This document shows positions 4,961 through 47,604 of a stretch of DNA of 64,000 bases, in pieces. A program made the position numbers and the translations under genes. Source of the stretch: Capitulum mitella (lineage: Eukaryota > Arthropoda > Thecostraca > Pollicipedomorpha > Pollicipedidae); NCBI GenBank assembly GCA_030062745.1, contig CP099842.1, forward strand, positions 1,922,001-1,986,000, read 5' to 3'. The number at the start of each line of letters is the position of its first letter. The stretch's first letter is position 1. The notes under the pieces were generated by a model. It was not told where the DNA came from, made no database searches, and was given only the letters and a program-made list of their open reading frames with translations.

Positions 4961-4966
<6 letters not shown>

Positions 4967-5030: not shown

Positions 5031-5033
<3 letters not shown>

Positions 5034-12188: not shown

Positions 12189-12301
12189 CTCAGCCAATCA
12201 GCCGCCACTGTCCGGAGCGGATGTACGTGTTCGAGCGCCACCTGGAGAAGAGCTTCCGGCCGCAGAACAACAACTGCACGGAACGGCGTGTCGAAGACAG
12301 G
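12189..12301 (+). CDS. nompA: nompA-like exon 5, haplotig copy, truncated by gap
   Basis: The first 113 nt of exon 5, identical in frame to 34550-34662. It stops at the N gap 18 nt before the exon end. The downstream exons of this copy are absent from the window. Confidence 0.8.
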
Positions 12302-22843: not shown

Positions 22844-23014
22844 ATTGTGTCGCTGATGGGAATTATCTATTTCGTACTTCAAAACTAGGGGAACAAATCA
22901 CCACTTTTGGAAAACTACGTGGAACATGCCCGCTGCAGCCCCATTACACCCATGGGCAAAGGCTCCAGAATATGCAGAATACCATTATAGCGCCTTGGTA
23001 GAACTGGAATATCT
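22844..23014. other. 171-bp insertion present only in copy 2
   Basis: Copy 1 runs directly from AAGAC to GGCCTGAC at 480-490. Copy 2 has 171 extra bases between these words. I see no terminal repeats or clear target duplication, so the direction (insertion here or deletion in copy 1) is undetermined. Confidence 0.9.
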
Positions 23015-23309
23015 GGCCTGACAACTACTCTACACGAATATTAATGTATTAATGTGTCTTGACATGCATCGCCCTTAATGCATTTGTATCAGAGGATTTC
23101 AGGAAAGGCTGCTGAGCACATGCTGGCTATTGTTTCACAGCTTTGAGCTTAAGTCCCACTCTTGCCTAAACTAAGAACGAAAAGCGGTGCTCCAGACAGA
23201 CAGACAGACCTTGAAACTGTCAGTTACATCGACAGTCTAAGAAGGCACATTGCTCCTGAAACGGTTTCGTGGGAAGACATTAGAACAAAGTCTTGATCAT
23301 ACACCGGGA

Positions 23310-23410
23310 GGCTAAATATCCAGCAAGATCCGGCCGGATCACAGGAATATCCGGCCGGATACCGGATATCGGATTATCTCTAGTATCCGGCCGGACCGGA
23401 TGTCCGGTAA
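23310..23410. repeat. Cluster of ATCCGGCCGGAT palindromes, copy 2
   Basis: Same cluster as at 780-880, essentially unchanged between the two copies. Confidence 0.6.
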
Positions 23411-26089: not shown

Positions 26090-26390
26090 CCCGACCTCCC
26101 CCGCGTTGGGCGTCTCACACCTGTCCGGCGTGCCCGCGTCCATGCCAGGCAAGGTCAGGACTGTCCCTTTCGTGGTCAGCGAGCGTGGCCGGCCGCCCCT
26201 GACCTGCCGTCGTGACTCGGAGCAGGCGGCAGACCATCCTGGGCGGCTCCGTTCCGGTGTCGGGCCGCCGCCACCGCGCCGGCTGGGCGCGTGAAGAGGC
26301 GACACGTGACGCAGTGCGTCCTGCGCCTCCGGCCGTATCTGGCCTGGACTGGTCAGGTGGCCTGGAGAAGTCATGGTCCTGGTGTCACTT
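26090..26390. other. CpG-rich island, copy 2
   Basis: Partner of 3540-3840, with few substitutions. No coding exon recognised. Confidence 0.5.
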
Positions 26391-28239: not shown

Positions 28240-28680
28240 ATGGTTCCGGAGTTACGGGGTTCCAAAGCCTCACCGTCTCAGCTGCGCTGGGTTACGTGCG
28301 CCAATATTCCCGGTCTGCGGGGCCCCGTGGTCCCGGTCCAGGGTCACGGGACAACAGGGTCGCCAGGCGCCGCGATGTGCCGGGCTCGGGACTCTCCAGT
28401 CCGGCCTGCCTGTGCAGCGGTGTGCCAGGTCCGGCCGGGAGGGGAGAGCGTGGGCGGAGCCGCCGCCGCCGGCCGCTGACCCCGCCGGCAGCCGGCGGCC
28501 GTTCAGGGCCAACGGTGCCGGGCGCCGGAGCATGCTGCCGATCACCCGGCCGGCCGGGCCACGCCCAGGGGGGCGGCCGACCGGCCGGCCCGGGCGTCAG
28601 GCTCTGTCAGGCCCGCCGCGGCGCCTGGCGGTCGGCTTCCCACGGTCAGAGCCTCCCGCCCCCTGTCACTCCCGTCAGTC
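28240..28680. other. CpG-rich island, copy 2
   Basis: Partner of 5730-6180. Open frames in several phases; none shows a conserved coding pattern against copy 1. Confidence 0.5.
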
Positions 28681-28924
28681 TCTGCATTGCAAGGAGCCAG
28701 ATAATTGTTAGGCACCGGAAAAATGACATGGATATTTGATGCGAAAAAGGCACATCTTGTGTCATTATAGTCTATTTCTGATTGTCTTCTGCTCTGGTCG
28801 AAGTACTGGGAAATGCCACTACGACGTGACAGCGCCTCGACTGAGATCAGCAGAAAGCATATAGCGTTCCTTGGCCCAGTCGCTTTCCGGCTCCAACGAC
28901 AAACACGCCATCCATTGACAAGCC

Positions 28925-29260
28925 GTGCTGGTGAGCGGTGGTCGGGTGTTGTCCAGTCCTGGCCGGAGCCGCGTCCCGGCCGATGGCGCGCGTTTTTTGT
29001 GCGCCAGTTTCGCCGCGGCCGGCGGCGCCGCTGCCGGCCGTGCTCCGCGCGCCGCGGCCGCAGCCGGCGGGCGTGCCGGGCGGGGCCCGCCGGAAGTGTC
29101 CGTGTCGCTTCCGGTCGGCCGCGGCGCGGAGCGACGAATAACGGCACGGCCGCCCGCCGCTAATCGGCGGCGCGCCAAAAGTGGTGGCGGGAGCCGGGCC
29201 GGGCGGCGTCACTCGATTATCCGGCGACCGGAGCCCGCGGCGGGCCCGCTAATCTGGCAC
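28925..29260. other. CpG-rich island, copy 2
   Basis: Partner of 6420-6760 and nearly invariant. Open frames on both strands reflect composition. Confidence 0.5.
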
Positions 29261-30054
29261 CAGTCTCCGGCTCAGAGACTGAAAAATGTGGCTCGTCAGA
29301 TGGCATTCGTTGCCTCAGCTTTGTACAACTGCACATGTCGGTTCAATGGCTGTGGACATTAGTACTGAAGAACGGACACACCCTGAATCATCTTCCAGCT
29401 ATCGTGATAGTACCGATGTGACCTTATAATATCATAGTTATGTTATACATACATATTATCATAGTTCGACATTAAAGCCAGCACTGCTAGTCATGTTACT
29501 ACTAAGAAAATTTGATATAAACACGTGCTTGTATGACGCGGAAAAAGCACCACGTTACAAAAAGATTTGCTGATAAAGCTACTTACACTACACGTTTCTA
29601 TCGACGCTGAGGTGCAACTTTTGGCTCAGAACTGGAATACTTTTGCATCAATTGATACTTTTTTCCAGAATAGCGGTTCAGATGTTACAGTCGCTGGCTA
29701 AGTAGGCCTCTGCTGGATCATCTGCGGTAAATAGTATGCCGGGATGCTGCTCTCCGGTGATTTCACCGGATTTGACCCACTTTGACAAATGCGACGCAAA
29801 TTAGTCCGTTTGCTCCCCACAACCGATGGTTAGGGCCAGCTGACCTGTGGGTAAATGCGTGCTGAGGTTTAAAATGGAAACATGGCGGAAACCAGCTTCA
29901 AAGTAGGTCATGACCCAACAGTAGGCAAGCAATGGACTTTTGAACATCAGCGGGCGAATGTTCAATTTAGCAGTAGTACGTACGATGAGTCTGAAAATCC
30001 GCTTTCGCCGTCGGGAAGGCGACGATTTCTGGAATCTGTCACAAGCACAGGGCT

Positions 30055-30130
30055 CTGGTCCTGCTCGTTACCTCAGTGCACAGAGACGCGCACTCATGAT
30101 CGCAGGGTTGTGGGTTCGAATATCGACGTT
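30055..30130 (+). repeat. tRNA-like SINE fragment, copy 2
   Basis: Same A-box-like and B-box-like words as at 7555-7630. Confidence 0.4.
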
Positions 30131-30869
30131 GTTAGTCCTCGATTGGAACGCCTGAACCCAAGTCACTGTGCGCCCTAATCCAAACTATCCCACCCAACAC
30201 AGGTCTCCGAAGTTTGAGATATCGAGGCTAAAAGGGAAGGATTCTTGACGTCTCTCTTCGAAACAACTGCCACACGAGCATTTAGTGGCACGTAGAGCAA
30301 CGCAAACTCTGTTTTTCCAAGTCGCCAAATGTTTTTATCTCTGTTACGCAGTTTTTATTTGTGCAAAAATGGGGGAGAGGTCTAATTTTGCTTCACATTT
30401 GCCGTATGTATTGTGTGTTGAGCCTAACATTATTACCCGTTTATTTGACGTTGTGACTCTTCTGCAAACCATCGAGAGGCGTCAGCGACTTTATTGCGCT
30501 AGTCACATGAATCGAATGGTTTTTCAGACCTCTGACTACCTCCAAAATGGGGATATATTTAAGTGCTAAGTATTCAGATTGTGATGCATGGTCTGACGCA
30601 ACAGTTATTTTGTTACATGCTTGCATCCGTCCGTACGCCAAAGGAACCGGAAACCTTGCTGTCATGCATTGAATGAGCTAGTCATTTTTTAATGGAAGTA
30701 CGCTAATTTAGTTTTTTGGACGTAAATAGCACGAGAAAAAAACTATGCTGACCCCAAAGGGAATGTAAGGGAACGCAGTTTAGTGAAAATGTGGGGAAAA
30801 GTGACGTGGGGACTGATCGCCGCACGCACAGACAAACAGAGACAGCTGGCGTGAGGGCGCGCCTCCACT

Positions 30870-31543
30870 CGACGGCACATGTTCGGCCTCAGCGGCGGCC
30901 GTCACGGACCAGCAGCCGCCGCCGCCGGCACGCAGCGCGCCTTTTTGCGGAGCTTCCGCGCGGCGCATCCCGGCCGCGTACGTGCCGGCGCGCGCCGGCG
31001 CGTTTGCGCGCGCCCGAGCGCGCCAATCGGAAGTCACGTCGCCGGGGCGCGCCAAATGATCGCCGCCTGGGTGGAGCCCGCCCGGGGCAGATTGGATCGG
31101 GGGCTGGCCATTGATCCGCCGCTATCGGGTCCGGCCGACCGTGCGGGCAGGACGGCTCCGCTCCCTCGCTCGGACTGACGCCGGGTTTCGGAGGCCCTCC
31201 GGCGCGTGAGGTCTCTGCGTCGGGCCGGCCGGGCCAGTGCGTGCGCAGCCGGCGAGAGTGGTGGTGCTGGGTCTTTGACGCCTGCCGCCGCTCTGGTGCC
31301 GCCGCTGGTGACTGCGGCCAGTGACTGGCTGGTGACTCCTCGTGGCGTCTGGCGACTGCGGCTGGCGACTCGGCTAGCGACTCGGCTGGTGACGCGGCCG
31401 GTGACGCGGCTGGTGCGCCCCCGATCCCCGACCCGGAGGCTTGTTAGCGGGATGACGCCGGGCGTTTGACGAGCCGCAGCTTGCACGGCTGGCTGCCTCC
31501 GGTGCAAACGGCCCTGAGGCGGAGCCGAGCCCGTGACGTCACC
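30870..31543 (+). promoter_or_regulatory. CpG island and presumed 5' UTR of the nompA-like gene
   Basis: CpG-dense block directly before the exon 1 start codon. It contains a 12-bp-class repeat around 31310-31410 that differs slightly from copy 1, and a perfect CRE palindrome TGACGTCA at 31534-31541, two bases before ATG. No TATA box was recognised; a CpG-type promoter is inferred. Confidence 0.5.
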
Positions 31544-31643
31544 ATGATGATCTGGTCCCCGACCATCGCGCTGCTGAGCGCGGCGATGAGCCTTAACGTG
31601 ACTGGCAACGCCACCGAGCCCGAGATTCCGACGGCGCGCAAAG
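31544..31643 (+). CDS. nompA: nompA-like exon 1: signal peptide
   Basis: Starts at ATGATG in context GTCACCATGATG. It encodes a hydrophobic leader (MMIWSPTIALLSAAM) with likely cleavage a few residues later, then two NxT sites (NVT, NAT). Ends AAAG|GTATAC, phase 1. Identical in both haplotype copies, unlike the surrounding introns, which supports coding function. Confidence 0.7.
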
Positions 31644-34600
31644 GTATACGGATAATTTGGATAATTTGGTCCTCCTGGTATTGCATCCCGCCTGCAGAAC
31701 GTGTTTATGATTCAGGACTCGCAATTGCGCGTGTATGCTGGGAAACGTTTGCTTCTCGTCTTTAACTGCCGCAGAACTTAAGCAGCAGAACCACAAAGTT
31801 TAGTGTGGGTGCTTTTAATGATTTTTTCCTTCGTCATGGGCGATCTCAAACTTTTTTTTAGATACAGTTTTGCAAGTGTTTTGACATTAAAATAAATCTT
31901 ACTGCGACCGGCCACCAATTGCTAGTCTATCCGCTCGGCCCCCGGAGTCTTTCAAACGCCTGCTTGGAAATTCTCTTGATGAGGGCGAACCTCTGTGAAG
32001 CTCGAGACCTGTTCTCAGTCTGGCGCCGTCCACAGCAAGTTTCTTCCTTTTTGATCCTATTAGCCTGAATGGATAACGATGATTGGCGGATTTCGTTTAA
32101 AAAGGGGAAGAATGAAAATAGTGACTAGCTACGAATGCCGCATATGCAGTGTCTGGACATTTCGCCGTCACTCGCGACAACCGGCGTGAGAGGATGCGAC
32201 GCGAAATGGCACTGGCAGTCGAGAGCGTCGTTTAATAACACAGTAACCAACAATATGCAGTGTCTGGCCATGCCAAATACCTGTCGCTAGGAATAATCAG
32301 ATGTGTTCTGCGTATGTATTCGTCAAGTGATGACAAGCTACTGGCATTGAAAATTCCGATTTGGAATTATGCGGCAACCAACACACTCAGAGGTTTCAGC
32401 ATTGATAAATAATAAAAAGAAGCTAAGGGTTATCGACATCGAGAGACGCCTCTTTCACTCCTAAAATTTTGCCTGGAGATCCCGGGACTGGGTCTAGACC
32501 CTCACGTTCCAGAGATTTTACCATTAAGCGTATGGCAGTGGCTGGAAAATGACGATCTGAAGTCTTTCTCTGGTCTAATAGTCACAATAATTTTTGCAAA
32601 TCTCCAACTGCGTATGAAATTGCCCAAAGCAAATCATTTCTGTGGCATGGAAAAGGTGACCGCAAAAACTTTCAGCGTTGTTGCTTTTGTTTACCCTGCG
32701 CCCTGCGTCGTAGGCAATGACGGGATCAAAAGTAAAATAACGTTTTAGTTAGATTTTTGATGGTACAATTTTGCTGCCATTTAATCATCGTTTGGCATTC
32801 GTGTACATTTAGACAAAATCTATTTCCATTTGAGTTTCATTCCTTTTTCATTTCCGAAGACTTGCCTAACCGTTTTTAGGATGTGCTTAAAACTTTGGAC
32901 TTTCCTCCAGTCCATTTTAATTGAAGCAGTTTCCAAAATGCAACCCAGTGCTTAATGCTATCGGATTCTGGGCGGCTTTTACCTGATGCATTCAGCAATT
33001 TCCAAGGAAATAGTACCAAGACGGCAATGCAGTCTCCGAGGATATTTGCTTGTGATGGTCTGCAGTTTCGATCTGGGTTTACATCAAGCAACCTTTTGTG
33101 GAGCCTAACCAAGAACGAGTGCGCCTATCTCAATCGGTCAGAAGACTTTCCTCATTGCCAACGTAAATAAATAGCTCATACGCATAAAATGTCACCCGAG
33201 GTTTCAAACTGTCACTGTTTTCGGGACAACGCTCAGCACGTATCCAAAGACTATCCGGTGTTGCCGGCTCCAAGTGGGCGCCTGTGGAGGTACCTGAAAT
33301 CATGCGATTTTGTTGAAATCTGCGATGAAAATACTCATGTGCGCATTCTTCTTTCCTCTGGCAGCTGCTACCGCTGAGATTGCCACCTGCGACAATGGCA
33401 GGGGGCAGCTCGTCTACGAAAGGATACCCGGCTACCAACTGCAAGGATACGACCAGGACCAGGTGAGACATCTCGTCACAGAGGCGGAAAAATAAGAGTA
33501 GACCTGTGACGATCGGATAACATCAAACGTAGGTCGGGGTCATTATCAAGAACATCTATTTTCACGTAGCTCGCAGGCGGATCCGGAAACATTTCGCAGA
33601 ACGTAAATGCGAGTTACGAGCTCATGTAGTCTTGTTCCGAGTCGGGACTCACTTGCCACTGTGTTGCCTTTCAGTCCACCAAGTCAGTGCTGCCGCTACA
33701 ACTGCTCGAGGAATGTCAGCGCGCATGCCTGAAGGACTTGACCATACAGAACAACCTGCTGCGTCCCTGTGGATCGATTGATTTCCACCCCGGTAAGGCG
33801 GCGGCGCCTCGCCTGGCCGCGTGGCTCACGTGTTCTGCTGCTGACGGGAGTGTCGCGCATTTTAGTGGGCGAGAACGGTTTGAATACGCCGATGGTTAGC
33901 ACGCATTTTGTTCAGTTACTCGGGTTTTCCTTCTATCTCTGCCGCTATCAGCTGCCTCACGAGTAACAGACGATTATCGATGTACAGAAATAACCCAAAC
34001 AATGGAGAGAAGTGTTTCTGTGTTAATAAGGAGACCAAAGAACCCATTTTTTCGTTTTCAGGCGAACCGTACGGAGATGGTCAGTACGACTCGTCCATGT
34101 GCTACCTGACTGAAGAGAAGGCCACACCAGACGGTATCGGCACCTTCGTCAGAGTGCCCGGATACATCCACTTCAACAAAGTCTGCATGCCCTGTGAGTT
34201 TACCGGCAGCGGCGCATCAGCTCGCCCGCTATTTTTTATTGCTGGGGAGAGTTCAATCCGTGTGCTTGTCGGCGCGAGTGCTAAAGGCAATAACGGACTT
34301 AAAAAAACTGCAAACGTCCAATAAAGCGAGATCAAGAAATTAGACTAGGTTTTCGTGTGTTTGGAAGCATTGTTTTATGTCTGCATATGCCATGTACGCC
34401 TGCAGTACTGGATCAAATCTGAAAAGCAGACAGAACTATCAATCTCAAGAGTAGGTGTGTTCCAATCAGACAATAAGTTGCGTCGTTCCCATAGAAATGT
34501 TAAGGTTGTCTGCCAAAGTGAGCTAAGTCGATGCTCTCGCCTGACGCAGCTCAGCCAATCAGCCGCCACTGTCCGGAGCGGATGTACGTGTTCGAGCGCC

Positions 34601-37600
34601 ACCTGGAGAAGAGCTTCCGGCCGCAGAACAACAACTGCACGGAACGGCGTGTCGAAGACAGGCTGGCCTGCGAGAGGAATGTGAGCGAACGACAACTTCA
34701 AAATCCGTCCGTCGTCTCAGGACTGGGTCTGACGAAAAGCACTTAAGTAATCGTGGTTATATTTCCCAGCTCGGTATACGTCTTGCTCGGGACTTGCTGC
34801 GATATTAGTGTGTTAACCACGACCCAGCTGTTGCGCTGAATTGGCCGCCAGCGATCGCCGGAACTTCTCTCTTGCTTTGAACTCACGGGAGGATTTTACA
34901 TATCTCCGGTTGCGCGGTCTCCTGCCGCCGGAGTTCTGAGGCCGATCTCCGTCGGTTCAGACGGCTGACAGTCTCCTGTGGGCGGAGTTCTGAGGCCGAT
35001 CTCCGCCGGTTCAGACGGCTGACAGTCTCCTGTGGGCGGAGTTCTGAGGCCGATCTCCGTCGGTTCAGACGGCTGACAGTCTCCTGTGGGCGGAGTTCTG
35101 CGGCCGATCTCCGCCGGTTCAGACGGCTGACAGTCTCCCGTGGGAGGAGTTCTGCGGCCGATCTCCGTCGGTTGAGACGGCTGACAGTCTCCTGTGGGCG
35201 GAGTTGTGCGGCCGATCTCCGTCGGTTGAGCCGGCTGACCGTCTCCCGTCGGCAGGTGCCTGGATTCGGAAAGCCAGGTGTGCCGTTCGGCCTCGTACAA
35301 CTCGGTCAACCAGACGTGCTACATGTGCCCCATCACGTGGCGCTCGGCTCCTGCGCTCTTCATGGACAAGGCCGGCGAGGAGTACATCGAAAACATGTGC
35401 CTCGAGAGTAAGTATTTTGGGGGAACGGCAGGAGAACCGGCATCAAGGTCGGTATTACAGAGCACCATGGATAAGTATGGAGTGCACATTATGATCTAGT
35501 GGAAATATGCAAACGGAAGTCCTAATATGACGAAGTGTCATGGTATATGAAAACTTGTCTGGGCCATTTGCCCACAGGAATAAAGAATCATAGCAGAGAC
35601 AGTCCAATTTATTCCTTTTCCACGATGCAGTCGTGGCCGCCTTGAACGACTCGGCAGAAAGTAAACAATTGTGACGCTTGTAGACACGTAAAGTTAACTC
35701 TGAATATTTACCATGCAAAGAGTTTGCACAGAGGAACAACCCAGGACAGTGGTACTCATTAAGTTGTCCATTCGATGCTTTTGGAGCAGTAAAGGTAGAA
35801 CGAGTAAAGCATCATGGTAAAGTTCTCGTCGTGAAGGTGAGTGCACGAAAAAGTGTTAAAAACCCGTCACTGTGTAAATGTACTTCACTGTAAATAATAC
35901 GTCACGGAGACTCTGTGTGTGTTGTGTTTGCTCCCTGCGCTTCTTCTCATTCAGCAGACGAGCCTGCATGTTTTGTTTTGCCATTTAACTCCGCTGAGCA
36001 CTTGACTTGGTTTCCACGTGAGTAGAAGTGTTGGCTGACACCGGCTTGTTATGTTCCGTTGCGCTCTCCTGCCGTCGGCCATTTTCTGCCGGTCCCGCTT
36101 CGCTGTACAGGCACCCGCCGCCGCGCCCGTCGACGACCGCGCCTCCACTTCCTGATGCTAACGCCGCTCACCCTGACCAGCCATGTCCATCACAGAGTCG
36201 CGCCGATGCGAGCGGCCCGACCACCTCATCTTCGTCGAGGAGGCCAACCGGTCGCTGCGCACGCCCAACAAGCCGACCCGGATCCGCGACCTTACCGTCA
36301 GCCAGTGCAAGACGCAGTGCGCCGAGCACCCGCAGTGAGTGGCCCGGCCACCCGCCGGTCCCGTCCGGTCCGGCGACCGCCGGTCCGGTCCGGTCCGGCG
36401 ACCTCCGGTCCCGTCCGGTCCGGCGACCGCCGGTCCCGTCCGGTCCGGCGGCCACCGACAGGGCCGCCGAGGTCCGCACGGGAGGAGACGCTGGCGGTCT
36501 GACCGCTACAGCCCTTATATTTATTGAGTTTTTACCCGAATCGCTATGATGTAATATGGAAAGATAACATTCACTTCTGGCTTATTGTTTTTATAACTGT
36601 TGTCATTTTTGCATCAATTTTTAATATTGGCGGTATCATGTGATTTAGTCTTGTGACATAACCGACTTCTCGTTTCCAAACCTGAATCCATGTCCAGCAG
36701 AATGTCAAAGATGTGGGGACTTTTGAAAGACGGTAACGTATTAAACATAAAACAATCATAGTAAGAACACCATCAAAATATTTTCTTATTACGATGGAGT
36801 TATATCACGCCAGTAGACTGGTTGGAAATCGTGATATCCCCGGGGTCGGTCTGCGGTGAGCGCCACACACCGCTTATACTCATCTCGGTGGCCGTCTCAG
36901 GATCTTCTGCCGCGCGCTCGAGTACAAGCCCCTGAACAACAAGACGGGCGACTGCTACCTGCTGGAGGACGACAGTCTGAGCGTGTCTCCGGAAACCAGG
37001 GGCGCCGACAGCCGCGACGACACCAATCTCATGGAGCTCATGTGCCTCGACCACGGTGAGTCTCAGCTCTGGTGGAGCTCCTGCGTCTCGACCACGGTGA
37101 GTTTCAGCTCTGGTGCGGTTCCTGCGTCTCATCCGCGGTGAGTTTCAGATCTGGTGGGGCTCCTGCGTCTCGACCGGGGTGGGTTTCGACTGTGGCAGAG
37201 CTCGTGTCTCGATCTCATGGCAAGAGTCGCGACTGGTGGATCTCGTGATCACGGATGACGGACTAGTTTCAGCTGCGATGGCGCTCACAGTTTGGAATCA
37301 CAGCGGTCACTGAGCGTCGACAGCAGCCCGTTTATAAAGCAAAAAAGCGTTTGCTCAGTTCAGTTCAGCTCAGTTCAGTTTATTTACGAATCATTCCAAC
37401 GCGTGGATTATTGTTCGATTCGAGTTACTTCAGAGCAGCACATGCGCGATAGTCATCAGATAAAACTAGGCAGCCAGACACGTCAAGGTATAGAAGATAG
37501 TTCGTCAGGTTTGCGTACAAGCTCTCTACGGGTTCGAGAGGGCGGTGATGTCCGGCGGCAGGTGGTTCCAGGACGAGACCGCGCGGTACGAAACAGCTCT

Positions 37601-40600
37601 GCCTTCACAATAGAATACTCCCCGCTCTCACTTTTTTGGGGAGCCCGTAGGTTCACTGACCTGTGAAATTCGCTGCTCGGCCAGCCCAGCTGGGACGGTG
37701 CGCAGCACCACCCGCTGCCGCCGCGGCTGGGAGCTCTCTCAGAGCGGCGCTGGTCGGTTTCCAGTGATGCAGCAGATGCAGTCGGACCGGACCGGCGGCG
37801 GCAGGAACGCCGACGGCGGGGACGGAGTCGGCGGCCGACGCCCGGGCGCCGGAGGCGACGACCAGACCTTCTTCAGGTGAGCCGGGCGACGACCAGACCT
37901 TCTTCAGGTGAGCCGGGCGACGGCCGACCCGGTCCGAGGAGCTGTGGGACGCGGTCTGTCGGGCTGGGGTGAAGACTCGCGCGCTATGGCAGTACGGGTT
38001 TTAACAGCAGGAACGGCAGTGCCCGTTAATCTTAATGCATAGTACTAAGATTAACGATTACAGGAGTTATCTCTAAAGCGAAGTCCTCCAAAGTCCGACC
38101 ATCTCGCTCCTCTGATGACGTGCTGCACAGCCGCAATGTTACACCATTATCTAAAACATACATGTGGTCGGATTTCACCGGATACACAATCGACTGAACG
38201 CATTGCAGGACCAGCCGCCTGCGTCCCAGGCCGTGTCTCCACCAGTCTTGCGGCTGGGGCGTGCTCGCCGCTCAGTGGTCCCGGTTCCCCGCTGACCAGT
38301 GCCGTGCCCGGCAGGGAGGGCCTGCACCGGGAGGCCGACCGCGAGTACGTGACGGCATTCCGCCGCTACAGCCGCAACCGGCTGGAGGGCGCCGAAGTCT
38401 TGAACCAGATACCGGACATGTCCGCCAGGATGTGCATGCTGGCCTGCCTGCAGACCCCAGGGTAGGCTACACCGAGCACGCGGCGTGCGCCGATGGCCAT
38501 TCGGCCGCGGCTTAATGGTGGAGCTAGGTGCAGGAGAGATGACAAGATGCGCATATACTCGCTTCACGTTTTCCCGCAGTAGCTCAGGGCTACAGGAGTT
38601 ATCTCTGATGCTGCGATATGTCGATTTTTCTCTCAGGCCGACCGCCTGCGGTGTGCCTGTTTACATTGTTGCAAATATCTGCCTGCACGAAGTAAGAAGT
38701 TCAGTGCTTTCTTTGAATCTCATGCCAGTCGACGCCATAGGCCCCAGACTCTTATTGTCCCGATTCCGAGGTTTATATTAGCCGGTTTTCAGTTGCTAGA
38801 AGAGTGTCGAATACTCAGTCGCCTTTCCTCGACGAACGGCAGGTGCCAGGCGATGACGTACAGCAAACGGTTCTCCATGTGCGAGCTGTACCGGCAGAAG
38901 GACGGACAAAGAGGCTCCCGCCTGGTCTACCACGACGACTACGACTACTACGAGAACCTGCTGGGAAGTAAGATCCGCCGTCCGTCCTCCGCTCGAACCT
39001 TATAAGCCTGTCACTTCGATCAACAGGGTGGTCGGTGAACTGGAAATACTGGCAATGGCTGTGGCACTACATGGAATGTCACAAAAATCTTACGTTTATT
39101 TGAGCACCAACAACCACGTAAGGAGGATGACTGGGTGACGTTTGAATGAATAACGGAAAGCTTACGGTTGCACTGCATGATGTTTTCCTATTTTTGCGAA
39201 CTCGGTTTATTTCAACCGGGATAAAGCCTTGTATAACTATTTCGACTCTGTGACTGCCCTATGACCTTTGAGATTTTCTTCTGGTGCTCTGCGTGCACTC
39301 ATCCCAGACTCTGCGTTACGGATTTCCCCCAGTTGAATACGGAAAATCTTGCATAACGCATCTTTAGTCCTGGGTACAGATTGCCTTGAGATTTGGTGGC
39401 TGCTATGTCCCAACTTTAAGGACTGCATGGCTCTAGGGTACCCATGCAGTGCGGAGCATACTTCGTAGTGCGACACATCACATTAACCCAAACAGCAAGC
39501 CAGTCCAACTAATCGAAGCAAAGGTTTCCCACGAGAGGCCATCGGAATCAAAATCTTACCTCCTAGATTTGCTTATTTTGAAGCGTACTGCGCGTCGTGA
39601 CGTCAGTGGCATGGCGTCGGCAACCGCAGAAGTCGCTCTTTCTGCAGGGCGGCATAAAAAAACGATGTAGCATGCGCAGAATAAGTCTCTATGCAAAAAA
39701 ACTTGAACATGAATGAATCTTTATGCGGAAAGAAGCCTTGGCACGAAAAGCTTTCGAGAGACTTCACCACTGTTCTCGTGATGAGCCGATGGTTTGTTGT
39801 AGGAAAGTACGATTTCCTGTACAAGTCTTAGGCCTTTGCTGGGAAACATTATTATCATAGACGAATCAGCCGAGAAATAGGCCGAGACCGAAGTATAGCC
39901 GAGTTAGAGTCTCAGCTGACAAGAACAGTGCGCAAAATGAACGATCTCGAAACTTCTGTTATTCTGTTTTGATCTGTCCCTTCAAGTTCCAGAAAGCAAA
40001 CGTTAACTTCTGGCGGTCCCACCTATCTGACCGATAAGTCAGCCGTTGATCAGCTATCCGCACTACTTTTGGGAACTGGGAAGGAACGGATTATCGGGCC
40101 CTTGACGACATTAAATAGACAATCCGAAGCCGGACTTGACGCCAGGACGTCGTATCGGACACTGGATCTGACACCGGACAGAAGACCGGTCACCGTATTG
40201 GGCACCGTGCCGGATATCGTACCGGCCACCGAACCGGACACCGGACACCGGATCTGACGCCGGACCAGACACCGGATCTGACACCGGACCTGACACCGGG
40301 CCGAACACCGGACCAGACACCGCACCGGACACGTGGCCGCACACCTCCCCGGAAACAGACACGGGACCGCGGACCAGACACCGGCCCGGACGCGCGACCG
40401 TGACGTCGCTTTGCGCTCCCCAGATAACTACTTCGGCCGCGGCGGCCGCTTCGGAGGCGGCGGCGGTTACTATGGCGACGGACGTGGCGGCGGCGGCGGC
40501 GGCGGCGGCTACTACATTGGCGGCGGCGGCGGCGGCAGCGGCGGTTATTATGGTGGTGGCGGCGGCAGCTACTATTCGGACGGAAGAGGTCGCGGAGGCG

Positions 40601-43600
40601 GCGGCTACTACAGCGGAGGTCGCGGTTCCTATGACTCAAGAGGTACCTTTGGCGGGGGCGGCGGCGGCTTCTCTGGCGGACGGGGCCAGTTTAGCGGCGG
40701 CCCTGGTGGCGGAGGCTTCGGAGGCCCCGCCGGCGGCCTGGGCGGCCCGGCCGGCGGCGGCTTCGGTGGCAGCGGCCCACGAGGCTCGTTCGGGGGCGGT
40801 GGCGGCGGCATCTCAGGGGCTGGTGGCGGCGGTCCGGCTGGGGGCGACAGGCCGCTGGGAGGTGGCGGGCCGCCCGGCGAGAACACCGTGGGCGTGGACG
40901 TGCCGCCACCAAAGCCGACGGTCATCCTCGTCAGCGAGGGCGGCGAGGATCCGGATGCCAGTCCGCCGCCGTCGCGCGGCGGCGGCGGCTTCGGCGGCGG
41001 TGGCGGCGGCTTCGGCGGCGGTGGCGGCGGCTTCGGCGGCGGTGGCGGCGGTTTCGGCGGCGGTGGCGGCGGCTTTCGGCGGCCGGGGTGGCGGCGGCGG
41101 TTTCGGCGGTGGCGGCGGTGGCGGCTCCTGGAGTGGCGGCGGCGGCGGCGGCTCATGGAACCGTGGTCCGGCAGACGGCTGGTCGTCCGGCGGCACGACG
41201 GTGTTCCGGCCCGGCGGCGGCAGGTCGCGCGTCATCTCCCCCGGCGGCGGCTGGGACAGCTGGGACTACGACCGGCGAGGCGGCGCAGGTGCGCACCGGT
41301 TTGTGTCTCGCGCTGGTGAAGGGGACGGCTTGGAGGCGGACGCGGCCGGCTCGGGCGACGGACGCCCGGCCGAGCCGGACGGCGCCGCTCTGCAGCGGCC
41401 CGCCGACGCCAGCAACGGCACCGGACACGCCGGCGACGCACCGCCCACCGCCAGGGAGCTAGGTACACGCTGCATGCGGACGGCGCATGCGCGCGCGGAG
41501 ACGCCCGAATCCCTGTCTGGACGGCGGCACGGTCGGCCGAGGCGGCCGGCGGCCAGGCCCCGCCGCGGCGCTCGCCTGGGACGCCAGTAGTTCGAACAGA
41601 ATCGTCGCGCTCTCCTGACCACCGGACTGGCGGCGCCGCGCGCGCCCACCCCGCAGTTGATCTCACGCATTCGTGCCATAGTCGGAGCGGTTCTAGTCGG
41701 GTCGACTTGCATCTGCCGCGTCCGGCGTCGGCCCGGAGCCCCGGAGCCGACGGGCACGGACTGAGGCGGCCGAGGACACCTCCCCGCAGAACGGAATGCG
41801 CCCGGATTGGTCATCCAGCGTGGGAACGGAACGCCGGGGCATGGTGGTGTGGCAGAACGCCTTGGACGGACTCGTATCGCATGCCTACTTATGCCTGAGC
41901 CTGCACGTTGAATGTGTTTCAGTTCGACTGCATCAATTGAGCTTGCACGTGCAATCACGTCGTTCCTGTAGTCAAGTGCTTACAAAGTAGGTGTTTGCTC
42001 TTCGGAACACTTATCTTTCGTTTAAAAACTTAAATGTTGCTTTCATATAACGTACAGTCTCATAGCGTCTCATAACGTCTCAGGCGTACATGATAAATGT
42101 TTTTCGTAGACGTGCAGCTTTGCTTTTCACGCCGCTTTGGGTCGGTGAACCATTCCGCTTAACCGCACAGCCTGAATCCAGTGCCAGCTCGGCCTCTGAC
42201 CTTGCCCCGCGGCTGCCAGGCGGCTCCGGCTACTACGGCGGCTCCCGCGGCGGCGGCTACGACAACCGCTACGACGACAGGCGCGGCAGCTTCGGCGGCG
42301 GCGGCGGCGGCGGCTTCGGCGGCGGCGGCTTCGGCGGCGGCTTCAGCGGCGGCGGCGGACGCTTCGGCGGCGGCGGCGGACGCTTCGGCGGCGGCTTCGG
42401 CGGCGGCGGCGGACGCTTCGGCGGCGGCGGCGGACGCTTCGGCGGCGGCTTCGGCGGCGGCGGCGGCCGGGCGCGCAGCTGTTACGAGGACCGGTTCACG
42501 CTGAAGGAGACCGGCCGGCGCCTGCGTGCCGAACACACCAGCGAACGCATGTCCGTCTCCTCCCTCAGCCAGTGCGAGGATGAGTGCATGCGCAACACCA
42601 AGTTTGTCTGCAAGTCCTTCTCCTACAGATACAGGTACCGTTGGGTCTTTGATACTGAGAGCCCGCATACTGTCTTTTCTTCTTCGGCTTATGTGTTTTA
42701 GATCATTAGCTTTAAGACAAACAAAGTTTGACATGCAAAAGTTGATAAAAATAATAATTACGGCTAAAATTTACTAGACCTGTACTAAAGCAACAAACCT
42801 AAAACCCGTGGCTCTGAAGCGGCTACGGGCTGCGCTGTAGGTCACATGGCTAAAGCTTAGACATCAGATGGAACTTCGCAATTTCGAAAAACAAGCCTTC
42901 TGTAACCACGAACGACTCTCTTCTTTCCAGCTCGTCCGGTTCGAGCGCCTCTTTGGACAACTGCGAGCTGAGCGAATACGACTCTCGCGACTCGCGAGAG
43001 TCGCATCAAAACATCATAGACGGCGACTTCGAGATGGACCGCGACTACGACTACTACGAGCGCTCCCGGATCGAGGACTGCGTTGACCGCGAGGTCGGAA
43101 GACCCGGCCCGGTCGGCGGCGGCGGCGGAGGGTTCGGCGGCGGCGGCGGCAGCTTCGGCGGCGGCGGCGGCGGCTTCGGCGGCGGTGGCGGCTTCGGGGG
43201 AGGCGGCAGCTTCGGAGGCGGAGGAGGCGGCTTCGGAAGCGGCGGCTTTGTCGGCGGCGGTGGCGGCTTCTCCGAGGGAGGCTTCATCAGCACCGACGGA
43301 GGCGATGGTGAGTGACTGCTGGATGACCCGCGTGCAGAGGCGTCTCCGAAGGTGCGCCCCGTGTCGTATTAAACAGGCGCTGAATTCAGCTTCGTGCGAC
43401 TTTTTGGCTCCGAGAACGAAAAGCCCACTCGCTCCACGGCACGGACGTTGCTACGACGGCGGCGGCCGGCCACTGCGACCTCCCGGCCTCCCGACTGAGC
43501 GCGCTTCCGTCCGACCGCCAGTGACGGCCACCTGCGACGAGAACGGCATGGAGCTGACCCTGCAGGCCAACGCGCCCTTCTACGGCCGCATCTACACGTA

Positions 43601-46600
43601 CCGGCACTACGACCAGTGCAGCGTGGTGGGCCGCGGCGACCGCGTCCTGTCGCTCCGCATCACCGCCGACGGCGGGTTCCCCGCCTGCGGCACTCAGCGG
43701 GTAGGTGCTGGTCCTTCCGGCACCAGGGATCTGCGGGTAAGTGTCGGTCCGTCGGACCTGCGGCCTCGGCGTGGTGGTGCTGGTCCGCCGGGCTTGCGGC
43801 ACGCGGCGTGCTGGTGGCGGTCTGCCCAGGCTTCGGTATCCGACGGTAGGTGCTGGTTTGGGACTCGTGTGAATTTGCGAAACGCTCGCCAACAGCAGCC
43901 AGAAGGTAGTATTCTTCTCGCGTCACTGCCGGTGTACATTGCCCGAAGCAGAGCTTTTCGCCTTGTAAATACAGCGCGAAACATGTGTATAAAAACGATG
44001 CATTTTTTGGCGTGATTCAAGAAATGAAAAGCCTCTTTACCATCCCAGTCCGCCCCTCACCTAATCATGCCTGCCCTGTAGTACGGGGACGTGATGCAGA
44101 ACATCGTGGTCGTCCAGTTCAGCGAGTACGTGCAGACCAACTTCGACAAGCGCTACAACCTGACCTGCTACTTCCAAGGCCCCGGCGAGGCGGTTGTTAC
44201 ATCCGGCTACATCGCAGCCAGGTGAGAGGCAGGACGAGTACCTCGGATCTGGCCATGTCCCGCAGGGAACCCGGTGACCGGATAAAGGAGAAAATGTCCT
44301 CTGAAAGGCGGAAATAATTGCTGTTTGTGTGTGTGTTCATTTGCTTGTCCGTTTTTGTTTTTGACGCCCCATCTTCGTCGCTGTAAATGCATTAGGATCG
44401 TTGTAGAGTATCATTATCGCTACTTGTGTATCGTTACTTATCGTCATATCGTTACTTGTAGAGTATCATAACCTCGAGACCTCTCGGCCGTGTGTTGCGG
44501 AATCATGGCGCTGCAGCGAACGGCCAGAACAGCAACAGCGACACTATGGCGTGCCGGCTCACCGCCACTCCCCGCAGCATCACTAATCCACGTGACATGG
44601 CTGTCCGCAGTCCGGGCCAGCTGACGCCGATCATCGACCTGCCGGCGCGCGAAGTGCTCGACTCGCGCGTGCGTCTGGCGATCTTGTACCAGGGCCGGCC
44701 GACCACCACCATCGCCGTGGGCGACCCGCTGACGTTCCGGCTGGAGACCCAGTCCGGCTCGAACCTGGTCACCGACATCTTCGCCACGAACGTGATCGCC
44801 CGCGACCCGTACACAGGCCGCTCCGTCGAGCTCATCGACCGACACGGGTGCGCGCTGCCCGCACGGGCCCGCGGCGCGCCAGGTCGTCGAGGTTCAGCGG
44901 GGTGTCGAAGGGAAATCGGTCACGATGTCCTCGCGAGTTCAAGGTGTTCTTACCAGCTGCAGGCATCTTTTCCGCTATCGTGGTGACCTCCAGGACTTGG
45001 CGTGTCGTTACTCAAACCAAATCTGAAACGCCTGGGGCGCGACAAGTACGGTGCGAATAACGCTCGCATTTGCGTGTGAGGACGGCGTGTTCCGGGCGCG
45101 GCTGTTGTACTGACGAATCTCCGGCCGCCGCCGCAGCTGCCCGACCGACCCGAGGCTATTCCCCGGCCTGGACCTGGCCCGCGACGGCAACGGCCTGGAG
45201 GCCCGCTTCAGCGCCTTCAAGATCCCCCAGTCCAACTACCTGCTGTTCGAGGCGACCGTCAGACCGTGCCGCCAGCGCTGCCGACCGGTGAGCGCCTTCA
45301 CCCCTCCGCCGCTCTTCCTCGCTCAGGGGATCTTCCGAACCAGGGCCTGCAGTGCGCCTCAGGCGCCGGACACTGACGCGAGTCCACTCCGCCGGGTCTC
45401 CGGCCGTTCACAGTTTGGCTCCGTTGGGTCAGAGTCCTGCCGGTGAAGCGGACGCCGATCGGCCGCTCTCGCCTCCCCGGCCGGCGCCGTGGACGGCCTC
45501 TGACGGCGGCCGTCTCCCCCGCAGGCGACGTGCGCCGTGGACGGCCGCGAGGAGGTGTCGTTCGGCCGGCGGCGGCGGCGCGCACTGCCCGAGAACGCCA
45601 CCGAGGAGCTGCCGCTGCCGGACCCGGCCGACGAGCCTGTCGAGCCGCAGGACGAGGAGCTTGGGCCCGACCTGGACCCGGAGCACAGCGAGGAGTATGT
45701 CAAGCGGCTGATGAGCGTGAGTACGGCGACTGGGCGGACTCCGAACGGCCCGCGCGACGACAGACAGCGCCCGGCAGGGGGAACGAGGCGCGGCCGGGAG
45801 AGGGGATGTTGAAAATTGCGAGTGGAAATGTGACAGTGGATCGATCAGATTGCGAGAATGGACGTCACGGGTCAACCAAAACGATGTGCTTTGCGCGGTT
45901 AAACATCAAGAACAAAATAGCGTCAACCCTTCGAAATATCCTTGTTAAAAATTGGCATTTCAGCGTCGTTTTGACCGGCGCAACAGTTCCAGTTCAGTGT
46001 TATTACACCACATCAGGCGGCCAAATCCTGAACAGCGCGGCTCTGCCGTTCGCATCTGACCCGTGACCTTGCCCCGCCAGGTCTTCTACACCCGCGACGA
46101 GCTGGCCGCCGAGGAGATGAAGGTCAAGAAGGACGTCTGCATCTCGTCGGCCGAGTACTACGGCCTGCTGGCCACGATGGTGGTGCTGATGCTGCTGATG
46201 CTGCTGGGCGCCGGCCTGGCCGGGCTCTGGTTCCGCCGGAGCCGGCTGCTGGCCTACAAGAACCAGGACGCCGACATGACCTCGCCGCTGCCCCGCGCCT
46301 TCGCCGCGCCCGGCGCCGGCAAGAACACATTCTCCTTCCTGCACGGAAAACGGTACGCCCGAGGAGGGTTCTGCCCGGGCTGTTGGACGTTGTAAAAGGC
46401 GTTGCATTGTAGTGCATTTCTGTTTTTACGGTTTTCCATCGTGGTGGTGGCTGTACCGCCACGAGCCATTTAGTTAAGCAGTGAGCAGTTAGTCACTACG
46501 GGCATACAGAATCAAGCGTTTATCGCATCGTAGCATATCATCATCTAGTTCACGTTACGCAGAAATGAAACGTTTCTTTTTAAACAGCGATACGGAACCG

Positions 46601-47604
46601 TTCTGGGACAGGTCCTGCGGTGCCGAGGGGACGCTGTTGAAAGCCTTCGGCGCACAATGGGAAAACCTTGCATCTTAGAACTTTAACTTTCTGTTTCTGC
46701 ACGTGAGCGTGGAACTCGCCATTATCTGTCTTGTCTTGTGAACTGTCCTCGAATGGCTTGGTTGCTCACAACGTACGTTGTCAGATACTCGGATTCTTTG
46801 TTCTTTAAAATCCTGTATGTGACCCAATGCGTGCTGTGATTGACCAGTTGCTCACTCGACAACCACTCAAGCCTCTTTTTCAGTCCAGACACATGGCGAT
46901 ATCTTTTACGTCCAAAAACAATCCAGACGGCAAAGTTTATGATTTTTCGACACTCTAATTTCGACACTACTGGTGCTCTTTTTTACCCGTTCCCGTCTCC
47001 CTGTACCCGTTGAGGGTGTGCGGGGCAAAATTTTCCACCCACACAGCTCAGTGTGGGGTTGGTGCTTATCCGGATGAGGGTCAGCGAAATCACTGGACAC
47101 CCTTACGTTTAAGCTCTTATCTTTGTGACGTTCTGCATGCGACAACTGCCGCTCTATGCACATGAATCGTGGGCATGTCAACATGTCCACGCTTTGCTTT
47201 TCCTCAGAAAAAGCTTCAGCCAAATGGGTATCACGTAGGTCTCCGAGGAGAAGGACGAACAAGGGCGTTGTCTGTTCCATGACAGATATTCCGATGAGAT
47301 TCTTTGCAGCCCTCGACGTTCTTCATCAATCCTGATCCTTGTCAAGACGACCAGCCAGTGATGGGCCTTCAGTAACCGGACACACCGCTTCCCCAGGTCG
47401 TCTCCGATGGGCAACAGCTTCCCGCAGGGCAGCGCCAACCCGGCCTACGAAGTGGACGGGCCGCCGGCGCCGCGCGGCCGCAAGTTCGACGACCCCAGCG
47501 AGCCCATCTACACGGACCCGTCGCTGTTCGAGCGCTCGCGCAGCCTGCGCTCCGTGTCGGCCTCCGAGTTCGGCCAGACGCGCTCCGCCGCCGAGCAGCA
47601 GTGA
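31544..47604 (+). CDS. nompA: NompA-like PAN/ZP-domain transmembrane protein, whole gene (21 exons)
   Basis: Assembled by hand from GT-AG junctions and reading phase; about 1,570 residues. Order: signal peptide (about 1-20); PAN 1 (about 40-150); PAN 2 (about 155-245); PAN 3 (about 250-347); PAN 4 (about 355-500); glycine-rich block; PAN 5 (about 925-1040); glycine-rich block; ZP domain (about 1113-1360); RRRRR furin-type site; one membrane span; cytoplasmic tail. Drosophila NompA also has five PAN modules plus a ZP domain; there it sits in the extracellular dendritic cap joining mechanosensory cilia to cuticle. By analogy this protein should be secreted to the apical surface, cleaved at the basic site, and polymerise through its ZP domain. 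The large glycine-rich blocks look lineage-specific. Two junctions remain doubtful (exon 5/6, and a frame break in exon 12). Confidence 0.8.
33365..33462 (+). CDS. nompA: nompA-like exon 2: start of PAN module 1
   Basis: Acceptor TTTCCTCTGGCAG, donor CAG|GTGAGA; phase 1 in, phase 0 out. Encodes IATCDNGRGQLVYERIPGYQ, a typical PAN opening with Cys followed by an aromatic strand and a Gly-Tyr turn. Confidence 0.85.
33675..33792 (+). CDS. nompA: nompA-like exon 3: PAN 1 helix with CxxxC
   Basis: Acceptor CCTTTCAG, donor CCCCG|GTAAGG; phase 0 in, phase 1 out. Encodes LLEECQRACLKD, the C-x3-C helix of a PAN domain, then LRPCGSIDFHP. The donor end is the single-unit form of the 34-bp array seen in copy 1. 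Confidence 0.85.
34062..34193 (+). CDS. nompA: nompA-like exon 4: second half of PAN 1
   Basis: Acceptor GTTTTCAG, donor CCCT|GTGAGT; phase 1 in and out. Encodes GQYDSSMCYLTEEKA and ends FNKVCMP, with the closing cysteines of the module. Confidence 0.85.
34550..34680 (+). CDS. nompA: nompA-like exon 5: start of PAN module 2
   Basis: Acceptor CTGACGCAG, phase 1 in. Encodes HCPERMYVFERHLEKSF and ends RLACERN just before GTGAGC, a strong donor, in phase 0. The next clear PAN segment opens in phase 2, so this junction does not fit by one nucleotide. See exon 6. Confidence 0.8.
34931..35255 (+). repeat. 54-bp minisatellite ending at exon 6 acceptor, 6 units
   Basis: Units start with GAGTTCTGAGGCC-type words at 34931, 34985, 35039, 35093, 35147 and 35201. 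The AG of the exon 6 acceptor (35254-35255) falls exactly on the next period, where GGGCGGAG of the repeat becomes GTCGGCAG. Each unit therefore carries an acceptor-like AG after TCTCCTGTGGGCGG. An uninterrupted minus-strand frame of 18-residue repeats crosses it because 54 is a multiple of three. Confidence 0.95.
35256..35407 (+). CDS. nompA: nompA-like exon 6: PAN 2, second part
   Basis: Encodes CLDSESQVCRSASYNSVNQT, a clear PAN continuation, and ends CTCGAGA|GTAAGT in phase 1. With acceptor GTCGGCAG the exon starts G-TGC and needs a phase-2 donor, but exon 5 ends in phase 0. An alternative acceptor at 35277 (AAAGCCAG|GTGTGCC) fits phase 0 but removes one conserved cysteine. The C-x3-C spacing of the other modules favours a start at 35256 with a one-base discrepancy nearby (assembly error, allelic indel or unusual junction). 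Confidence 0.7.
36181..36334 (+). CDS. nompA: nompA-like exon 7: start of PAN module 3
   Basis: Acceptor CCCTGACCAG, donor CCGCA|GTGAGT; phase 1 in, phase 2 out. Encodes RRCERPDHLIFVEEANRSL and SQCKTQCAEHP with the C-x3-C helix. Lies inside a CpG-rich stretch (36050-36500). Confidence 0.88.
36357..36456 (+). repeat. 25-bp minisatellite just after exon 7 donor, 4 units
   Basis: Units start at 36357, 36382, 36407 and 36432 with GGTCCCGTCCGGTCC or GGTCCGGTCCGGTCC. The array begins 22 bp after the exon 7 donor and lies wholly in the intron. Confidence 0.95.
36901..37055 (+). CDS. nompA: nompA-like exon 8: second half of PAN 3
   Basis: Acceptor GCCGTCTCAG, donor CCACG|GTGAGT; phase 2 in, phase 1 out. 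Encodes IFCRALEYKPLNNKTGDCYL and closes with LMELMCLDH. The exon end and donor form the first unit of a 41-bp array. Confidence 0.88.
37046..37205 (+). repeat. 41-bp minisatellite spanning exon 8 splice donor, about 4 units
   Basis: Units begin at 37046, 37087, 37128 and 37169 with CTCGACCACGGTGAGTYTCAG or close forms. Units 2 and 3 keep an intact GGTGAGTTTCAG donor, and unit 4 reads GGTGGGTTTCG. The exon 8 end and donor have been copied into the intron. Using unit 2 or 3 would add 41 or 82 nt and shift the frame. Confidence 0.93.
37690..37876 (+). CDS. nompA: nompA-like exon 9: linker into PAN module 4
   Basis: Acceptor GGCCAGCCCAG, donor TTCTTCAG|GTGAGC; phase 1 in, phase 2 out, matching both neighbours. 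Encodes TTRCRRGWELSQSG and a Gly/Asp-rich stretch ending GDDQTFF. Less conserved-looking than the other exons, so it rests mainly on phase and splice sites. Confidence 0.65.
37855..37916 (+). repeat. 31-bp tandem duplication of exon 9 donor, 2 units
   Basis: The segment CGACGACCAGACCTTCTTCAG plus GTGAGCCGGG occurs twice head to tail, with donors after 37876 and 37907. Either GTGAGC is usable. The second would add 31 nt and shift the frame. Confidence 0.95.
38315..38461 (+). CDS. nompA: nompA-like exon 10: PAN 4 helix
   Basis: Two in-phase acceptors are 15 bp apart: GCTGACCAG before 38300 and GTGCCCGGCAG before 38315. The difference is five residues. Encodes REYVTAFRRYSRNRLEG and MCMLACLQTP with C-x3-C. 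Donor CCAGG|GTAGGC, phase 2 out. Confidence 0.8.
38843..38967 (+). CDS. nompA: nompA-like exon 11: end of PAN 4
   Basis: Acceptor ACGAACGGCAG, donor GGGAA|GTAAGA; phase 2 in, phase 1 out. Encodes GCQAMTYSKRFSMCELY and an acidic aromatic run YHDDYDYYENLLG typical of linkers in this protein. Confidence 0.85.
39005..40423 (+). other. Intron 11
   Basis: No exon seen between 39005 and 40423. The last 280 bp are a repeat of short CACCGGA-type units. Short open frames upstream have no recognisable content. Confidence 0.5.
40140..40400 (+). repeat. Short-unit CACCGGA repeat before exon 12
   Basis: Degenerate units of roughly 10-12 bp (ACCGGACCTGAC, ACCGGATCTGAC, ACCAGACACCGG) repeat through the end of intron 11, stopping about 25 bp before the exon 12 acceptor. 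Confidence 0.85.
40424..41462 (+). CDS. nompA: nompA-like exon 12: glycine-rich block, contains a frame break
   Basis: Acceptor TGCGCTCCCCAG, phase 1 in; opens NNYFGRGGRFGGGGGYYGDG. Long Gly/Phe/Tyr/Ser repeats (GGGGGF units) surround a less repetitive patch. The glycine frame changes at 41074-41076, where one unit reads GGCTTTCGGC instead of GGCTTCGGC. Before this point the first frame is glycine-rich; afterwards only the +1 frame stays glycine-rich (GGGGSWSGGG, SWNRGPADGWSSGG). The uncorrected frame stops at 41317. Two possible donors in the downstream frame, 41288 and 41462, both leave phase 1 and match exon 13. The extra T may be a sequence error or a real allele. Confidence 0.7.
42220..42634 (+). 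CDS. nompA: nompA-like exon 13: glycine-rich block and start of PAN 5
   Basis: Acceptor GCGGCTGCCAG, phase 1 in. Encodes GSGYYGGSRGGGYDNRYDDR, then many GGRFGGG units, then SCYEDRFTLKETG and SQCEDECMRNTKFVCKSFSY, a textbook PAN segment with C-x3-C-x7-C. Donor TACAG|GTACCG, phase 2 out. Confidence 0.85.
42931..43307 (+). CDS. nompA: nompA-like exon 14: end of PAN 5 and third glycine-rich block
   Basis: Acceptor CTTCTTTCCAG, donor GATG|GTGAGT; phase 2 in, phase 1 out. Encodes SLDNCELSEYDSRDSRES, an acidic Asp/Tyr run and IEDC closing the PAN module, then GGGGFGGG units ending EGGFISTDGGDG just before the ZP domain. Confidence 0.85.
43522..43700 (+). CDS. nompA: nompA-like exon 15: ZP domain, N-terminal part
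   Basis: Acceptor CGACCGCCAG, donor CAGCGG|GTAGGT; phase 1 in, phase 0 out. Encodes TATCDENGMELTLQANAPFY, the conserved start of an arthropod ZP domain, with GRIYT and a DQCS cysteine. Confidence 0.88.
43695..43860 (+). repeat. Degenerate repeat beginning at exon 15 donor
   Basis: Words of the form GCGGGTAGGTGCTGGTCC, GCGGGTAAGTGTCGGTCC and GACGGTAGGTGCTGGTTT recur at uneven intervals after the donor. At least two further units hold a donor-like GTAAGT or GTAGGT. More decayed than the arrays at exons 3, 8 and 9. Confidence 0.6.
44082..44221 (+). CDS. nompA: nompA-like exon 16: ZP domain
   Basis: Acceptor TGCCCTGTAG, donor GCCAG|GTGAGA; phase 0 in, phase 2 out. Encodes MQNIVVVQFSEYVQTNFDKR followed by YNLTCYF, a conserved ZP strand with an N-glycosylation sequon. 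Confidence 0.9.
44611..44847 (+). CDS. nompA: nompA-like exon 17: ZP domain, middle
   Basis: Acceptor GGCTGTCCGCAG, donor ACGG|GTGCGC; phase 2 in and out. Encodes VRLAILYQGRPTTTIAVGDP and DIFATNVIARDPYTGRSVEL, a block strongly typical of insect cuticular ZP proteins of the NompA/Dusky class. Confidence 0.92.
45137..45287 (+). CDS. nompA: nompA-like exon 18: ZP domain, C-terminal part
   Basis: Acceptor CGCCGCCGCAG, donor CGACCG|GTGAGC; phase 2 in, phase 0 out. Encodes GCPTDPRLFPGLDLARDGNG and NYLLFEATVRPCRQRC with the last ZP cysteines. Confidence 0.92.
45525..45716 (+). CDS. nompA: nompA-like exon 19: end of ZP module and furin-type site
   Basis: Acceptor CTCCCCCGCAG, donor ATGAGC|GTGAGT; phase 0 in and out. 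Encodes ATCAVDGREEVSFGRRRRRA; the five arginines at 45567-45581 form a consensus proprotein-convertase site, as expected after a ZP domain. An acidic Glu/Asp/Pro stretch follows. Confidence 0.92.
46081..46352 (+). CDS. nompA: nompA-like exon 20: juxtamembrane and transmembrane segment
   Basis: Acceptor TTGCCCCGCCAG, donor AAACG|GTACGC; phase 0 in, phase 2 out. The membrane span LLATMVVLMLLMLLGAGLAG lies at about 46165-46225, followed by a basic stop-transfer segment (FRRSR) and the start of the cytoplasmic tail. Confidence 0.9.
47397..47604 (+). CDS. nompA: nompA-like exon 21: cytoplasmic tail and stop
   Basis: Acceptor CCGCTTCCCCAG, phase 2 in; TGA at 47602-47604. Encodes SFPQGSANPAYEVDGPPAP and a Ser/Arg-rich end. 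The NPAYE motif resembles an endocytic or adaptor-binding NPxY-type motif (inference). Confidence 0.9.

Follow-up and report, generated by a model that had tools for sequence, protein, structure and literature searches.

Minisatellites lying across 5' splice sites in a PAN-domain gene of Capitulum mitella and at other exon ends of its genome

Minisatellites that lie across exon-intron boundaries have been described in amphioxus, where they are called mirages. According to the available parts of two reports (PMC3087553, PMC3902484), mirages occur in Adh3, in the globins BflGb6 and BflGb9, in troponin C and in PGBD5. Their minisatellite-like units extend across the boundary, many of them carry AG/GT signals, and it has been suggested that new introns arise from them. 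The BflGb6 mirage has six units in one haplotype and three in another, and RT-PCR suggested that splicing is undisturbed by mirages (PMC3087553, in its available part). Previously, boundary-spanning minisatellites were thus on record, in these partial sources, from a few lancelet genes. In potato, a tandem duplication with splice signals in an RdRp gene gave a new intron that is absent from relatives (PMC4974935, excerpt), and the intronic minisatellite CeRep25B of C. elegans lies near alternative splicing (PMC4039745, excerpt). In the part of the literature covered, no report of such boundary-spanning minisatellites in arthropods or crustaceans was recognised by its title or the start of its abstract.

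The arrays of C. mitella share with the mirages, as the excerpted reports describe them, units that span the boundary, AG/GT signals, and a unit number that differs between copies. In those same excerpts mirages are found in few genes and at both 5' and 3' boundaries, whereas about 130 donor arrays are extrapolated here, with no excess at the normalised acceptor word; and mirage splicing was checked by RT-PCR, whereas we infer normal splicing in C. mitella from sequence. The potato gene, in the portion of the report at hand, gained a new intron, whereas the C. mitella arrays only enlarge existing ones, although splice signals are duplicated in both. CeRep25B, as excerpted, is one named repeat family, whereas each C. 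mitella array that was read has its own sequence, because it is built from the local exon end; both lie near splice decisions. The kind is known from lancelets. What is new is its recurrence across this genome, which is seen for donors rather than for the tested acceptor words.

The window, that is, the whole stretch of DNA analyzed, comprises 64,000 nucleotides (C4:1922001-1986000) of an assembly of 477 Mb in 16 contigs. A hand-built gene model was obtained, and the exon numbering used in the original prediction matches it. The 5' part of the gene is present twice:

31544-47604, plus strand: gene of 21 exons, with 20 introns, every one GT..AG
1-12301, plus strand: upstream copy of the 5' gene part and its flank, with exons 1-4 and part of exon 5; its identity to 22362-34662 is 96-98%

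In the model, the coding frame is unbroken from exon 1 to exon 5, from exon 6 into exon 12, and again from exon 13 to exon 21. A one-base phase mismatch separates exon 5 from exon 6 (34680-35256), and a single-base frame break lies inside exon 12 at about 41075, within a Gly-rich run; the join of exons 12 and 13 was placed by hand because exon 12 carries this internal break. Each of the two single-base breaks may be either an assembly error or a damaged allele. In a profile search, PAN_1 was above its cut-off in three of four protein pieces, with 1 + 3 + 1 = five stretches at E values of up to 1. CUT_N was just over its cut-off (27.9 bits against 27) and ZP-C fell below it (16.6 bits against 24.6). 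The protein also has Gly-rich stretches and, by eye, an RRRR stretch and a transmembrane-like segment. In insect NompA, five PAN domains precede a ZP module and a membrane-spanning segment, an architecture that this protein may share. Elsewhere in the window, positions 52535-53605 hold a long open frame with a membrane-like stretch and, by eye, a methyltransferase-like look, which is likely a second gene.

The upstream copy stops at a 500-N gap (12302-12801). The 187 codons of exons 1-5 show two synonymous and no non-synonymous differences between the two copies. Exons 6-21 are present once in the window, and a 501-base probe taken from the gene's central part (38000-38500) has a single occurrence in the genome. 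The duplicated 5' part fits a leftover, unmerged second haplotype. Extreme polymorphism is reported for another species, the barnacle Balanus improvisus (PMC8270832, available part).

Arrays along the gene were located with TRF, and their units were checked in direct sequence print-outs:

11263-11432, plus strand: exon 3 array of the upstream copy, 34 bp x5, across the donor; unit of 31 bp exonic and 3 bp intronic sequence
33762-33795, plus strand: exon 3 segment of the downstream copy, the 34-bp segment as a single unit at the donor
34917-35253, plus strand: exon 6 array in intron 5, 54 bp x6.2, stopping 2 bp short of exon 6 (35256)
36344-36457, plus strand: exon 7 array, 25 bp x4.5, beginning 9 bp past the exon 7 donor; intronic
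37032-37187, plus strand: exon 8 array, 41 bp x3.8, across the donor after 37055; unit of 24 bp exonic and 17 bp intronic sequence
37854-37929, plus strand: exon 9 array, 31 bp x2.5, across the donor after 37876; unit of 23 bp exonic and 8 bp intronic sequence
40185-40345, plus strand: exon 12 array in intron 11, with 12/24/36-bp periods, ending 78 bp ahead of the acceptor; intronic
43746-43816, plus strand: exon 15 array in intron 15, 36 bp x1.9, beginning 45 bp past the donor

The donor-spanning arrays that had been proposed for exons 3 (in one assembled copy), 8 and 9 were all recovered by TRF and in the print-outs, and their units carry both exonic and intronic sequence, with the exon end and the donor in each. 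The claim that unit number differs between the assembled copies also held: the exon 3 array has five units in the upstream copy, the first four donors reading GTACGT and the fifth GTAAGG, and one unit in the downstream copy. If the two copies are alleles, the number of units varies between haplotypes. In the exon 9 array, units 1 and 2 are identical and are followed by a partial unit. Comparison with the gene model found no units of mixed exonic and intronic sequence in the arrays near exons 6, 7 and 12. For these three, the presence of an array stood and its exact position did not. The exon 6 array adjoins the exon with no exonic part, but ends 2 bp before the acceptor and not exactly at it; the 25 bp array of exon 7 is near the donor, but starts 9 bp after it by TRF, not 22; and an array does precede exon 12, but at a distance of 78 bp from the acceptor. 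The decayed donor-spanning array suggested for exon 15 found weak support, as the array starts at +45; a lone donor-like site at +36 hints at a trace of an older donor-spanning unit.

Donor scores in bits were derived from the gene's own 20 donors. In the upstream copy, the five donor sites of exon 3 score 8.7 bits apiece. The true donor of exon 8 scores 10.5 bits and its decoys 10.5, 8.7 and 5.9, and the true donor and the decoy of exon 9 score 11.2 bits alike. The expectation that repeat units keep functional-looking splice sites was therefore borne out for the donors of exons 3, 8 and 9, but not for the AGs of the exon 6 array, which score no higher than 5.5 bits, whereas the true acceptor scores 10.8; with its AGs this weak, we regard the array as an intronic one that adjoins an acceptor. 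No donor-like decoy of more than 3 bits was found inside the exon 7 array. At exon 15, the +36 site (after 43736) scores 10.2 bits against 7.7 for the assigned donor, which makes the assigned donor uncertain. That decoy use would shift the frame holds in part: the +36 site of exon 15 is in frame, and the 54 bp spacing at exon 6 is a multiple of three. In the donor-spanning arrays the coding frame continues to the first donor; the exon 9 decoy runs into a stop at once, and use of the last exon 8 decoy would mean reading through a stop. Under random placement in introns, two of six arrays would fall on donors with P 0.03-0.14, and three of seven with P 0.004-0.03 when the upstream copy's exon 3 array is added, where the range reflects how far into an exon an array may reach and the arrays were picked post hoc. 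A donor placement beyond chance within the gene is thus suggestive.

Our preferred reading, which we hold to be probable, is that the arrays are minisatellites straddling 5' splice sites ("mirages") that are tolerated in a repeat-rich genome and have made no new intron. Ordinary tandem duplication or slippage would give rise to them, in a genome where minisatellites are dense; evenly spaced stretches totaling 200 kb hold 60 arrays of period 20-100, which make up 3.8% of the bases. A duplication within an exon would usually harm the protein, and one within an intron would not. Across a donor, it would do no harm provided that splicing uses the first donor: the added copies would then all fall in the intron and leave the mRNA unchanged. 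With the exon and the donor preserved by the first unit, arrays could thus persist at 5' splice sites. Across an acceptor, duplication would place extra AGs near or downstream of the branch point, where they would probably be used, so that the mRNA would gain sequence; this is perhaps why acceptor-spanning arrays are rarer. Harm at acceptors but not at donors would explain the preponderance of 5' over 3' arrays without any benefit or intron birth.

To find such arrays at other genes, the whole genome was searched for pairs of the donor word, CAGGTGAG N12-42 CAGGTGAG (CAG|GTGAG at 20-50 bp spacing), and of the letter-reversed word. Calling exons by codon score gave too many overlapping frames, and the score was used solely beside donors. 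Of the first 14 CAGGTGAG clusters on C1, 11 have a coding exon that ends at the first donor, 10 of them by score and one by eye (L048, in which the exon ends one unit earlier, at CAG|GTGGG); the other three (L038, L042 and L047) are without a clear exon. All three further GTGAG triple clusters are coding upstream, as are four of seven GTAAG clusters, the remaining three of which (L072, L073 and L075) have no clear exon; the upstream stretches were of unequal length, and coding scores are not strictly comparable between these sets. By reading, F-box-like and CAP-Gly-like exons are among the clustered exon ends. For nine of the 10 clusters that the score marks as coding, the start of the array lies 4-37 bp ahead of the first donor, less than one unit; in the exception, L041, it lies at the second donor. 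Unit length is a multiple of three in four of 19 arrays, without bias, in a test that took in L042 and L047, which have no clear exon, and omitted L038 (29 bp). Together with the stop behind the exon 9 decoy, this figure is in line with silent decoys. At one locus (C1:4794690-4796793), a coding exon end and its donor are followed by about 48 copies of a unit of about 45 bp made of exon end and donor; as this length is a multiple of three, many of the decoys are in frame. Other genes, on C1, C7, C9, C10, C11 and C14, have arrays of diverged units at their exon ends. This recurrence of donor arrays at other genes suggests a tolerated, repeat-rich landscape rather than the birth of introns in one gene.

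Kinase loci were also inspected, as eight pairs of neighbouring domain matches in different open frames (a subset of such pairs), with junctions assigned by eye, and none of the eight first-exon donors lies within an array. In one of these kinases (L032, coding-strand positions 1887-2027), the donor of the second exon lies inside a decayed array of 41 bp x3.4, with the donor GT gone from its place in the later copies. This decayed array is an older stage of the donor-spanning arrays. Twenty evenly spaced 10-kb stretches of C1-C7 (L007-L026) were tried as a source of donors and rejected as too gene-poor; three arrays with donor-like units were opened there, none with a clear exon.

A different account of the same arrays is that 5' splice sites are preferred, either through some process linked to the exon-intron junction that makes or keeps donor arrays there, or through a benefit of spare donors for exon recognition. 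We think this unlikely, although several counts speak for it. The genome has 1,716 CAGGTGAG pairs against 172 of the reversed word, with 22,952 and 9,377 single sites, that is, 7.5 and 1.8 pairs per 100 sites, a 4.1x difference; triples number 1,122 against 91. Words of the same composition gave 73 pairs in 4,031 sites (1.8 per 100; 200 kb of evenly spaced stretches), so that the excess is again 4.1x, or 6.5x without the locus L010, which alone contributes 30 of the 73 control pairs and leaves 43 in 3,752 sites. A donor-repeat pattern that goes beyond one gene was thus confirmed for the GTGAG word against both kinds of control. The acceptor word CTTTCAGG is near parity, at 43 pairs in 20,663 sites (0.21%) against 21 in 10,770 (0.19%) for its reversal, or 1.07x; no triples were visible among its 43 pair matches, and its composition class has 62 pairs in 9,126 sites (0.68%). 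A second acceptor word, CTTCCAGG, has 73 pairs against 75 reversed, as raw counts without single-site normalisation, and some of its arrays look like donors.

Raw pair counts weight long arrays heavily, however, and the C1 array of about 48 copies alone makes up 47 of the 100 CAGGTGAG pairs listed. Clusters were also counted by eye among the matches listed, with site numbers scaled from genome totals and each region ending at its last listed match. Clusters of at least two copies numbered 14 (C1:0-31.9 Mb) against 43 in the control (C1-C9), only 1.36x per site (P 0.20), whereas those of at least three copies numbered 12 (C1:0-43.7 Mb, about 1,989 sites) against 10 (C1-C9, about 6,019 sites), which is 3.6x per site (P 0.003). 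By extrapolation from the 12 clusters in these 43.7 Mb, the whole genome would hold about 130 donor arrays of at least three copies for this one 8-mer. The 3.6x excess surpasses what indifference to position would give, unless arrays are generally denser in the introns of genes than in evenly spaced DNA, which may be the case. The second donor word, CAGGTAAG, has 76 pairs in 10,260 sites (0.74%) against 38 in 13,117 reversed (0.29%), a 2.6x difference, but stays below its composition class (54 pairs in 5,838 sites, 0.92%); the GTAAG form of donor is therefore without a demonstrated excess, and the donor-specific reading loses one support. As single sites, CAGGTGAG is 2.4x as common as its reversal and CAGGTAAG is rarer than its own (10,260 against 13,117), so that GTGAG looks like the favoured donor form in this genome.

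The coverage of donors also weighs against a preference for the splice site itself. For 40 consecutive plus-strand CAGGTGAG sites on C1, with 100 bp upstream and 300 bp downstream and each array counted once, array coverage was 0.7-3.4% upstream, 10% at the donor (four of 40), 12-13% in the 100 bp behind it and 5.8-7.1% beyond. Two of the 11 coding-like sites in this sample were covered, and a third has an array from 6 bp into the intron. In this small sample, with its four donor arrays and 11 coding-like sites, the idea that repeats are denser at splice sites than elsewhere in introns failed, donor coverage being no higher than that of the following 100 bp. Arrays seem to favour the starts of introns, with the donor sharing in that, and the sample has no peak at the donor itself. 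We are similarly doubtful of the fuller statement that the 5' splice site is favoured for the birth or retention of minisatellites, that several percent of GTGAG donors are multi-copy, with about 48 copies in one array, and that splicing in this lineage reliably picks the first donor.

It is still less probable that a wrong assembly accounts for the lengths of the arrays or for the duplication of the 5' part. The gap at the end of the upstream copy, the single occurrence of the mid-gene probe and the two single-base frame breaks would agree with such an artefact, but the diverged units of the arrays at exon ends on six contigs would not, and an artefact would not prefer donors to acceptors. 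Intron gain or splice-site drift in action through tandem duplication of an AGGT-bearing segment (the Rogers model), as the original prediction proposed, is hardly credible: the exon 9 unit does span one AG|GTGAG to the next and strong decoy donors are duplicated, but the gene model has no extra intron, frames reach the first donor, the units straddle existing donors rather than exonic AGGT and, at 31-41 bp, would make very short introns, the decoys of exon 9 and (last) exon 8 meet stops, and the introns already present are merely enlarged.

Minisatellites across 5' splice sites, as we prefer to read these arrays, make this array-rich genome a natural test of how the spliceosome chooses among identical adjacent donors, and of whether arrays become introns. 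With three such arrays in one gene, and one unit against five at exon 3 between the two assembled copies, a direct test on alleles is possible.
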